Assembly: GCF_900231835.1 (NCBI RefSeq)
Contig: NZ_OCTN01000002.1
Span: 186,001 to 250,000 of the forward strand
Reading direction: 5' to 3'
DNA length: 64,000 bases
From: Pontivivens marinum
GTDB taxonomy: Bacteria > Pseudomonadota > Alphaproteobacteria > Rhodobacterales > Rhodobacteraceae
In this document: piece after piece, positions 36,506 through 39,649 of the stretch
Layout: the number at the start of each line of letters is the position of its first letter
Position numbering within the stretch: position 1 is the first letter of the stretch
The notes under the pieces: model-generated
Told to the model about the DNA's origin: nothing
Databases searched by the model: none
What the model saw: the letters and a program-made list of their open reading frames with translations, nothing else
Translations under genes and position numbers: made by a program

Positions 36506-37897
36506 ATGGCCACGCAATACGATCTGATCGTCATCGGGGCAGGCCCCGGAGGATATGTCGCAGCGATCCGTGCGGCCCAACTTGGCCTGAAAACGGTCAT
36601 TGTTGAGCGCGAGCACATGGGTGGCATCTGCCTGAACTGGGGATGTATCCCGACCAAGGCGCTGCTGCGTTCGTCCGAGGTTTTCCATCTGATGCACCGC
36701 GCCAAGGAGTTCGGCCTGAAGGCTGAGGGCATCGATTACGATATCGATGCAGTGGTAAAGCGGTCGCGCGGCGTTGCAAAACAGCTTAGCGGTGGCGTTG
36801 CCCATCTGATGAAAAAGAACGAGATTACCACAATCATGGGTGAGGCAAAACTGGCCGGTAAGGGCAAGGTGACCGTCAAAACGGACAAGGGCACCGAGGA
36901 ACTGACCGCCAAGGACATCATCGTCGCCACCGGCGCGCGGGCCCGCGAATTGCCTGGCTTGGAGGCCGACGGCGATCTGGTTTGGACATATAAGCACGCG
37001 CTGTCGCCACCCCGTATGCCCAAGAAACTGCTCGTCATCGGTTCGGGCGCGATCGGGATTGAGTTTGCCAGCTTCTACAACACGCTGGGCGCAGACACGA
37101 CTGTGGTTGAGGTTATGGACCGTGTTCTGCCGGTTGAGGATGCCGAAATCTCGGCCTTTGCCAAGAAGCAGTTCGTCAAACAGGGCATGAAAATCATGGA
37201 GAAATCCATGGTCAAGAAGCTGGACCGCGGCAACGGCAAGGTTACTGCCCACATTGAAACCAATGGCAAGGTTGAGAAGATTGAATTCGACACCGTCATC
37301 TCCGCCGTTGGTATCGTTGGTAATGTTGAGGGGCTGGGGCTGGAGGAGCAGGGCGTAAAAATCGACCGCACCCACGTCGTGACCGATGCGTATTGTGGCA
37401 CTGGGGTCGATGGCGTTCATGCGATTGGCGACATTGCCGGCGCACCATGGTTGGCGCACAAGGCCAGCCACGAGGGCGTGATGGTTTCTGAGAAAATTGC
37501 GGGTAAGAAGGTGCATCCGGTTAAACCGGAAAGCATCGCTGGCTGTACTTACTGCCACCCACAGGTCGCCTCCGTCGGCTATTCCGAGGCGAAGGCCAAG
37601 GAGCTGGGCTATGACGTAAAGGTTGGCCGCTTCCCATTCATTGGCAACGGTAAGGCAATCGCGTTGGGTGAGCCTGAAGGCATGGTCAAAACTGTGTTCG
37701 ACGCAAAAACCGGTGAGTTGCTAGGTGCGCACATGGTTGGTGCGGAAGTAACCGAGCTGATCCAAGGCTATGTTGTTGGTCGTCAGTTGGAAACGACTGA
37801 GGAAGACCTGATGCACACAGTCTTCCCGCACCCGACATTGAGCGAGATGATGCATGAAAGTGTTCTGGATGCCTATGATCGGGCTATTCACTTCTAG
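36506..37897 (+). CDS. lpdA: Dihydrolipoyl dehydrogenase (E3)
   Basis: 463 residues. FAD/NAD oxidoreductase re-oxidising dihydrolipoamide in PDH, OGDH, branched-chain and glycine-cleavage complexes. FAD motif VIGAGPGGYVAAIRAAQLG, redox disulfide in GGICLNWGCIPTKALLRS, NAD motif VIGSGAIGIEFASFYNTLG, and the C-terminal HPTLSEMMHE with the catalytic His. AGGCAGGAG lies before the ATG. Here it is not next to sucAB or pdh genes. A terminator follows. Confidence 0.97.
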   Translation: MATQYDLIVIGAGPGGYVAAIRAAQLGLKTVIVEREHMGGICLNWGCIPTKALLRSSEVFHLMHRAKEFGLKAEGIDYDIDAVVKRSRGVAKQLSGGVAHLMKKNEITTIMGEAKLAGKGKVTVKTDKGTEELTAKDIIVATGARARELPGLEADGDLVWTYKHALSPPRMPKKLLVIGSGAIGIEFASFYNTLGADTTVVEVMDRVLPVEDAEISAFAKKQFVKQGMKIMEKSMVKKLDRGNGKVTAHIETNGKVEKIEFDTVISAVGIVGNVEGLGLEEQGVKIDRTHVVTDAYCGTGVDGVHAIGDIAGAPWLAHKASHEGVMVSEKIAGKKVHPVKPESIAGCTYCHPQVASVGYSEAKAKELGYDVKVGRFPFIGNGKAIALGEPEGMVKTVFDAKTGELLGAHMVGAEVTELIQGYVVGRQLETTEEDLMHTVFPHPTLSEMMHESVLDAYDRAIHF

Positions 37898-37927
37898 TAT
37901 TAGCACTTGTTAATGCTACATGAACTG

Positions 37928-37965
37928 AAAGCGCGCGCTGCCGAGAATGGTAATGGGCGCTTTTT
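37928..37965 (+). terminator. Terminator of lpdA
   Basis: AAAGCGC (37928-37934) pairs with GCGCTTT (37957-37963) and the run continues TTT; the stem closes a 22-base loop. Confidence 0.75.
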
Positions 37966-38073
37966 AATAAAATTTTAGACATCATTGATAAGCGATTTTG
38001 AAACTTTCTGGCGCGCAGGTGCGTTGCTTCAATGCGGATAAAGAACATTTCTCTCAGCATGAGGGGAATTAAT

Positions 38074-38778
38074 ATGACTACGCATACAAATTTCAAGCTG
38101 TTCGCCACATGTGCGGCAGTGCTGATTGCTACGAGTGCTAACGCACAATCCATCGATGAAATTTGCGATCAGATTGCAAACCTCGATCCATTTATAGTGG
38201 ATGATGAGGTGGAGCGGATGTGTCAGCCGATCATCCTTGGCTCAACTGGCAATGTTCGCATGTCGGACGATGGTAGCCTTATTATTGATTTCGATAACGC
38301 ACCTCAGAATCCATCCACAGATCCGGATGACGACTTAATTGATGTCGCTGTTGGAACCACAGATGATGGTGGTGTTGACTTGGCGGCTGATGTTGGTGGC
38401 ATCGCCCTTGATCTTTCAGCATTCTCTGATCAAGGCGTAACGGTTACGTCCGGCCTGTCAGGTAGCGGTTCCTCCGATGTTATTCAGGCTGCTGTAGGTG
38501 CATCAGGCGGGAATTCGTCGGGCAGCTCGCTGATTGATGCTGATGTTCTTGGTGGCTCCGGAACCGATACTGGCTCTGATCTAGTGGATGTGAACGTGTT
38601 CAGCGGTAACGATGACAACGACAGTGATGTTGTCGATATCGACGTTGCTTCGTCCTCCGGTGACAATGCAGGCAGTATTGCCAGCGTTGAGGTTGAAAAC
38701 GTCGCTTCCGTCGATGTTGGTGGTTCCAGTAGAATTTCTGCCAATATCGCTGGAATTAGTGTGAGCATTGGGAACTAA
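38074..38778 (+). CDS. Secreted acidic repeat protein, unrecognised
   Basis: 234 residues. GAGGGG lies 7 bases before the ATG. Sec signal peptide (FATCAAVLIATSANA, cleavage near 24). The first mature part has two cysteines (Cys31, Cys50), perhaps disulfide-bonded. From about 85 on it is rich in Asp, Ser, Gly and Val with almost no basic residues. A short strand motif [LIV][IVA]x[AVID]xV recurs at 136, 153, 170, 186 and 202 (VIQAAV, LIDADV, LVDVNV, VVDIDV, IASVEV), spaced 16-17 residues, suggesting a beta-solenoid. No family recognised; likely an extracellular or cell-surface protein. Confidence 0.85.
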   Translation: MTTHTNFKLFATCAAVLIATSANAQSIDEICDQIANLDPFIVDDEVERMCQPIILGSTGNVRMSDDGSLIIDFDNAPQNPSTDPDDDLIDVAVGTTDDGGVDLAADVGGIALDLSAFSDQGVTVTSGLSGSGSSDVIQAAVGASGGNSSGSSLIDADVLGGSGTDTGSDLVDVNVFSGNDDNDSDVVDIDVASSSGDNAGSIASVEVENVASVDVGGSSRISANIAGISVSIGN

Positions 38779-38887
38779 ATTAGTGTATGCTTGATTTACA
38801 GGTCAGCCTCGACCGTTGGTGTTACGAGGTTTAGAAATGAAATGTTCTGAGTCCGCCCTTGTGGGCCACGGCTTGACTGACCTGCCT

Positions 38888-39649
38888 CTATGCTGCCGGT
38901 TCTTCGCGTAGTGGCGCGATAGACGACAGACCAGTTTGCATTGGGTTCGGCTGATCATTTGAGCCGGTGGCCCGCCTGATTGCTGTTGCTGTATCTTCCG
39001 CCCTGGCTGCGAGGCGGTTCATTTCCTGTGCTACGACGCTAAAGCCACGACCGGCATCACCCGCGCGTGCGGCCTCAATTGATGCGTTGATTGACAGTAC
39101 GCTTAGCGATTGCAATGTTTCCAGGATATCGGCAGTTGCCGCCACGATGCGGACATTGCGTTCCCTTGCCTCCTGCGCGCGGGATTGCCAATTGCTCTTT
39201 TCGGCCATCTGGGCGGTCATATCGATGATGACACCCTCTAGCGCCTGCAATTCGCCATCTGTACTATACAGCCCGCCGCCATAGCCCTTTACCCACACCA
39301 CTTTGCCGACGGGACTGACCATCCGAAATTCGATTTGCCATGGTTCATGGGCATCAAGGGCGTTTTGCAGTTCAGTAAGCATGCGGATACGATCGTCGGG
39401 GTGTAGGATCGTGCTCCACGCGCCGCCAATGCTGTGCATTAGTTCATCGTGAGTATAGCCAATCGTTTCCTGTGATTTGCCCGCAACCCACATCAGTGGA
39501 TACCCCGGTGTTGGGTGGCATCGGAACAGCACGCCGGGGATATGCGAGGTTATCGCATCAAACCGTTGGGTAATATCGCCTTCGGATGTTTGGTCAGTGT
39601 AGGGCATGGGTAACTCCTCATTCACAACGGCATCTGACGCATCATTCAT
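38888..39649 (-). CDS. PAS protein with miniature chemoreceptor-like signalling hairpin
   Basis: 253 residues, no TM helix, so cytoplasmic. PAS/PAC domain (about 30-145: [34 protein letters not shown]-type region, VVWVKGYGG) followed by a helical segment that contains [10 protein letters not shown] at 188-197 and then [14 protein letters not shown], the tip signature of MCP signalling domains. The MCP domain is far shorter (about 80 residues) than the usual 250 or more, so it may bind CheW or CheA only partly. It lies divergent from ccmF; no che genes are nearby. Confidence 0.83.

Follow-up and report, generated by a model that had tools for sequence, protein, structure and literature searches.

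Several described systems resemble, in part, the locus reported here. Orphan exported bacterial proteins have few relatives, diverge fast, are encoded at lower GC, and are matched by an empty site in sister species; unplaced families restricted to two known species are common. RTX beta-roll proteins are acidic and rich in Gly and Asp, and their repeat is near 18 residues long. Exported amyloids with repeats, among them curlin (CsgA), are small proteins composed of tandem repeats of strand length; the curlin repeat spans about 23 residues (23 +/- 5; PMC10192328). At the RNA level, the nearest case of pairing between 5' and 3' untranslated regions (UTRs) that we met is the icaR mRNA of Staphylococcus aureus, in which the 3' UTR is proposed to pair with the same molecule around its ribosome-binding site, the Shine-Dalgarno sequence itself being the pairing partner (PMC3868564). 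At the DNA level, invertible segments are bounded by repeats of 10 to 20 nt that are often mismatched (PMC5903667). Here, we compare these systems with a gene of Pontivivens marinum that encodes a repeat protein and is enclosed by an inverted repeat; the UTR arms formed by this repeat are the less ordinary part of the locus.

The gene lies in a 64,000-nt stretch of DNA (here, the window, to which all positions refer) from the 3.73-Mb genome of P. marinum (assembly completeness, 99.81%). Its coding sequence occupies positions 38074 to 38778 on the forward strand (234 codons plus stop), exactly where the sequence-only reading had placed it. The features discussed below are as follows.

38034..38051, forward strand: 5' arm of the inverted repeat, ending 22 nt upstream of the ATG (known from two sequences only)
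38061..38067, forward strand: Shine-Dalgarno-like GAGGGGA preceding the ATG at 38074 (read from the sequence)
38074..38778, forward strand: coding sequence, 234 amino acids plus stop (ortholog with the same start; third codon positions most divergent)
38074..38145, forward strand: putative Sec-type signal peptide, residues 1 to 24, ending in ANA (AQA in the ortholog; read from the sequence)
38146..38292, forward strand: two-cysteine head, residues 25 to 73, with C31 and C50 (conserved in the ortholog)
38479..38496, forward strand: repeat motif 1, VIQAAV, residues 136 to 141 (motif scan)
38530..38547, forward strand: repeat motif 2, LIDADV, residues 153 to 158 (motif scan)
38581..38598, forward strand: repeat motif 3, LVDVNV, residues 170 to 175 (motif scan)
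38629..38646, forward strand: repeat motif 4, VVDIDV, residues 186 to 191 (motif scan)
38677..38694, forward strand: repeat motif 5, IASVEV, residues 202 to 207 (motif scan; not kept in the ortholog)
38734..38775, forward strand: conserved C terminus ISAxxxGxSVSIGN, residues 221 to 234 (ortholog comparison)
38839..38856, forward strand: 3' arm of the inverted repeat, beginning 60 nt downstream of the stop codon (known from two sequences only)

On one side, the gene is flanked by a gene at 36506-37897 (+), which we take to be lpdA from its sequence and Pfam domains, and on the other by a gene for a PAS/MCP-signal protein at 38888-39649 (-); the gap between these two neighbors, calculated from the ORF coordinates, is 990 bp. 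The GC content of the gene is 0.50, compared with 0.565 for lpdA. Both orthologs are preceded by AT-rich DNA (GC content of 0.41 at 37898-38073 and of 0.36 at 2236-2535 of the ortholog locus, L002). The neighboring PAS/MCP protein has a PAS domain and a partial MCP signaling domain (profile positions 35 to 94 of 172), and its gene adjoins lpdA in all four genus genomes, yet the identity of the proteins is only 36 to 64%. Between the repeat protein gene and this convergent neighbor, the segment 38779-38887 folds strongly on both strands (z of -4.0 and -4.2), with an outer stem formed by CAGGTCAG/CTGACCTG, and may be a shared terminator of the two convergent genes; its equivalent at the ortholog locus folds less (z of -1.6 and -1.3).

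Our sample of the genus comprised four genomes, namely, that of P. marinum (G000), that of Pontivivens nitratireducens (G002), and two others (G001 and G003), and the gene is present in two of them (G000 and G002). The ortholog of P. nitratireducens (P0002; 245 amino acids; 35% identity over the BLASTP alignment) is found at the same locus and keeps the start ATG, the signal peptide, C31, C50, an IVDD segment, and the ISAxxxGxSVSIGN end; the STGNV...IDF segment of the head is largely kept as well. Because the ortholog has a conserved signal peptide, cysteines, and C terminus, we regard the gene as genuine and established rather than as a fresh frame, and the same conservation sets it apart from the orphan exported proteins that it otherwise resembles. 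Between the aligned codons of the orthologs, 46% of first, 40% of second, and 70% of third positions differ, a pattern consistent with purifying selection on a fast-changing protein; dN/dS is unusable for this pair because synonymous sites are saturated. Among the flanking proteins of the same two genomes, LpdA is 94% identical and the PAS protein 64% identical. In G001 and G003, the same neighbors lie 10 and 45 bp apart, respectively, with no gene between them. Because the neighbors are most alike in G000 and G002, a single gain on the stem shared by these two species would be the simplest history.

Searches for further members returned none that we consider credible in samples of 394 family, 390 order, 385 class, and 398 phylum genomes, which overlap and are not exhaustive. 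With the tail as query and E values up to 10, the four genus genomes yielded the two orthologs only; viral contigs, plasmids, and phages yielded no relatives, and a scan of the genome collection, reliant on a pair of short peptide patterns, retrieved P. nitratireducens only. In the 394 family genomes, tblastn gave 17 matches at E values up to 0.01 besides the gene itself, 10 of which were read in the matching frame (L007, L010 to L014, and L019 were left out). Eight of these 10 are presumably ATP-binding proteins of molybdate-type ABC transporters, and the other two are presumably other proteins. In the eight, GLSGSGSSDVIQAAVG aligns with the Walker A loop (residues about 100 to 164; window positions 38374 to 38565); we take this resemblance, which is not kept in the ortholog, as chance. 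Matches to the repeat part alone in the class genomes (nine others at E values up to 0.1; best, 0.0057) showed nothing similar in the four that were read, nor did the four read in the matching frame, and a fifth (L057) read in an incorrect frame, from among the matches to the head alone in the family genomes (14 others at E values up to 0.1; best, 0.004) combine both head and repeats. A two-row profile of the orthologs found no others in the order genomes at E values up to 0.001 and five others in the phylum genomes at E values up to 0.1 (best, 0.0024), of which two were read and neither was similar. One head match in the same family (L053, genome G123; E value, 0.022) lies in another small protein, which has a signal peptide, cysteine in its head (LCDDVANADP), and a tail rich in Gly and Thr and is perhaps another orphan of similar style.

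The view that the protein cannot be placed in any family is borne out for Pfam, NCBIfam, PDB, and PHROG. Pfam gave no family at E values up to 1, RTX and curlin included; NCBIfam gave no match that places the protein and no RTX model; and the PDB gave no such match with phmmer or, subsequently, with the two-row profile. A plant proteinase inhibitor (1fyb), matched by phmmer at residues 43 to 86 (E value, 0.00037), did not recur with the profile and was therefore rejected, and PHROG matches at E values of 0.0088 and 0.31 were absent for the ortholog. Rfam showed no credible match at the gene, and literature listings for related orphan or solenoid proteins yielded nothing specific.

The protein is acidic, as first proposed: its mature part (residues 25 to 234) has 39 Asp plus Glu residues versus 3 Lys plus Arg residues, with 34 Asp, 32 Ser, and 27 Gly. 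Judging from the signal peptide and its retention in the ortholog, it is predicted to be exported by Sec, in agreement with the proposed secretion, and neither protein has a lipobox. The two cysteines reported for the head (C31 and C50) are both kept in the ortholog. The motif [LIV][IVA]x[AVID]xV was reported at five in-register positions, and these positions are exact: residues 136, 153, 170, 186, and 202, spaced by 17, 17, 16, and 16. Further matches occur at residues 41, 88, 210, and 225. In 20,000 shuffles of residues 75 to 234, the longest chain with spacings of 15 to 18 reached a maximum of 3, once (observed, 5), and the motif count reached a maximum of 6, once (observed, 8). Because this pattern had been picked after the sequence was viewed, a pattern-free self-alignment was added. 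The gapped score for residues 75 to 234 is 127, versus at most 87 in 150 shuffles, and that of the ortholog is also 127, versus at most 111 in 150 shuffles. Without gaps, a lag of 16 scores best in each protein, in a test (residues 75 to end) that is weaker (P values of 0.0235 for the window protein and 0.1035 for the ortholog), and hydrophobic autocorrelation is not significant (maximum of 0.16 versus a 95% shuffle value of 0.225). At the DNA level, the copies have just short, imperfect stretches in common. Thus, repeats of about 16 residues are real yet degenerate. Their copy number is not conserved between the orthologs: the P. nitratireducens protein has two exact copies of the motif and four of a looser form.

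We favor, with a probability of about 40%, the reading of a lineage-restricted gene that combines a Sec-exported, acidic protein with a flexible tail and, as one reading of the inverted repeat, end-to-end pairing of its mRNA. The gene common to the two Pontivivens species encodes a protein of about 21 kDa that is strongly acidic and whose head may be closed by a C31-C50 disulfide outside the cytoplasm. The repeats would be short segments prone to form strands (xVxVxV), with flexible loops of Ser, Gly, and Asp between them, and the tail, extended and mostly flexible when alone, could make the protein a spacer or matrix protein of the periplasm or surface. The 5' and 3' untranslated parts of the mRNA would pair through the inverted repeat close upstream of the ribosome-binding site, and this pairing may lower translation or alter the life of the mRNA.

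The evidence for the pairing comes from the two arms, which enclose the coding region, are 18 nt each, and are 83% complementary. Allowing up to three mismatches, a search with the 3' arm found no site in the window other than the two arms themselves (0.04 matches expected). Arms lie at equivalent places in P. nitratireducens, 19 nt before the ATG and 56 nt after the stop codon, and a flank alignment blind to pairing sets the 3' arms opposite each other, along with the outer half of the 5' arms. Between the species, one G-C pair is replaced by A-T and one T-A pair by C-G. Cognate arms pair at -23.2 (G000) and -25.2 (G002) kcal/mol, whereas crossed combinations reach -15.5 and -14.4 kcal/mol. 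When the G000 arms were changed randomly and independently by similar numbers of substitutions, the G002 value was reached in 0.01 to 0.03% of 20,000 trials per setting, and in 0.005% of 20,000 trials when one of the G002 arms was kept constant. In models of the whole transcript, 14 of 18 bases of the 5' arm pair with the 3' arm with probabilities of 0.58 to 0.69 in G000, and the corresponding probabilities in G002 are 0.78 to 0.99; the minimum-energy fold of G000 lacks the stem, which costs 3.5 kcal/mol to force. These compensating changes, seen in two sequences and accompanied by weak gapped measures, suggest pairing of the 5' and 3' UTRs of the mRNA. The arrangement differs from that of icaR in that the candidate arm, known here from sequence alone, ends about 10 nt upstream of the Shine-Dalgarno-like element.

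It is also quite possible, if somewhat doubtful in our view, that the inverted repeat arose by chance, was retained through common descent, and has no function. It was noticed in the course of exploration rather than predicted, and the limits of the arms in G002 were chosen once the pairing had been viewed. Whole flanks treated with duplexfold did not separate from shuffles (P values of 0.18 and 0.21); the solutions held very long internal loops, and local tests were therefore used instead. Strict complementarity of the flanks was reached by 9 and 7 of 500 shuffles; when flanks of window ORFs were paired at random 2,500 times, the strict score was reached in 1.0% (G000) and 0.2% (G002) of cases. 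The gapped score, itself weak as a measure, was reached by 1.4% (G000) and 17.8% (G002) of 500 shuffles and by 6.3% and 41%, respectively, of random ORF-flank pairings. Against a chance origin, independent drift should weaken the pairing, but its strength is unchanged despite changes on both sides. We put the arm pairing being functional, as RNA or as DNA, at about an even chance.

For the protein, structure prediction gave models of low confidence. From the two-row alignment, AlphaFold modeled the whole protein with a mean pLDDT of 36.5 and no residue at or above 50, and the repeat region alone with a mean of 53.0 and two short strands (about residues 172 to 176 and 186 to 190). Because proteins represented by one or two sequences are often poorly modeled, these values prove neither a solenoid nor disorder. 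One reading, which we consider rather unlikely, is that of a wholly disordered, acidic, Ser/Gly-rich exported protein in which the repeats are traces of duplication or slippage with no structural role. The throughout-low confidence, the amino acid composition, and a Ser/Gly-rich replacement at the position of motif 5 in the ortholog would all agree with it, but the hydrophobic motif positions are kept in three adjacent repeats of both proteins, and the C-terminal ISAxxxGxSVSIGN is conserved. Since the composition is acidic and the Ser/Gly/Asp stretches are long, a tail that is largely flexible but has short strand-prone segments, as in the reading that we favor, is suggested.

The inverted repeat might instead act as DNA, with the arms marking the borders of a gene-bearing segment that is invertible or was once mobile rather than forming an RNA stem; we regard this as unlikely. 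Consistent with it, the coding region lies between the arms, which are concerted in each of the genomes and resemble the short mismatched repeats that bound invertible segments (PMC5903667), and two species lack the insert. On the other hand, no recombinase adjoins the gene among the window ORFs next to it, the orientation is the same in both genomes, and the empty sites also lack extra DNA beyond the arms. Inversions are reported in none of four alphaproteobacterial samples in that source (PMC5903667).

The sequence-only reading had proposed a small beta-solenoid, possibly calcium binding or adhesive. An ordered solenoid with 16 to 17 residues per turn, perhaps stabilized by calcium in acidic loops, would account for the regular spacing, the alternating hydrophobic residues, the lag of 16 favored in both orthologs, and the two weakly predicted strands in adjacent repeats. 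It fits less well with there being one strand motif only per 16 to 17 residues and with the loss of motif 5 in the ortholog, and the pLDDT values above lend it no support. Calcium binding fared no better: neither ortholog has a DxDxDG-type (EF-hand/dockerin-like) loop. We judge an ordered solenoid to be improbable. A match to an RTX or hemolysin family, named beforehand as a possible refutation of the solenoid, was looked for in Pfam and NCBIfam and not found.

Still less probable is a functional amyloid or curli-like fiber subunit. The protein shares with curlin its small size, its export, and its strand-length repeats, but its repeats are shorter (16 to 17 residues), it is very acidic, it has no QxGxxN or other Gln/Asn ladder motif, and it has no curlin repeat (PF07012). 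Curlin repeats and CsgG (PF03783) are also absent from the genomes of P. marinum (assembly 99.81% complete) and P. nitratireducens; CsgG is present in G003. In that genome, a curlin-repeat protein is encoded close to the CsgG protein (G003:C1:3855083-3857775, L046 to L050), and searches of the three remaining genomes of the genus found neither. Finally, the idea that the frame is spurious as a gene, or that its product is an RTX protein, can be virtually dismissed: the lack of a family match and a single GGxGxD string at residue 160 (with no loose form elsewhere) stand against an ortholog with a coding pattern of change, no RTX model match at E values up to 1, no GGxGxD in that ortholog, no tandem GGxGxDxUx nonapeptides in either protein, and an N-terminal signal peptide that distinguishes both from RTX proteins.

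A broader formulation, in which a new family of exported proteins with strand repeats of 16 to 17 residues was born in one marine genus and its expression is switched by an end-to-end mRNA fold or an invertible segment, goes further than the reading that we favor and is, taken as a whole, a long shot. Should neither reading of the arms be true, this would be an ordinary orphan gene. Were the arms to act at the DNA level, the gene would be a candidate for on-off switching, and if they truly pair in the mRNA, the locus would be an uncommon case of control by pairing of 5' and 3' UTRs with some evolutionary support. Young exported repeat proteins, most of which are unplaceable, supply marine bacteria with raw material for varying their surface.
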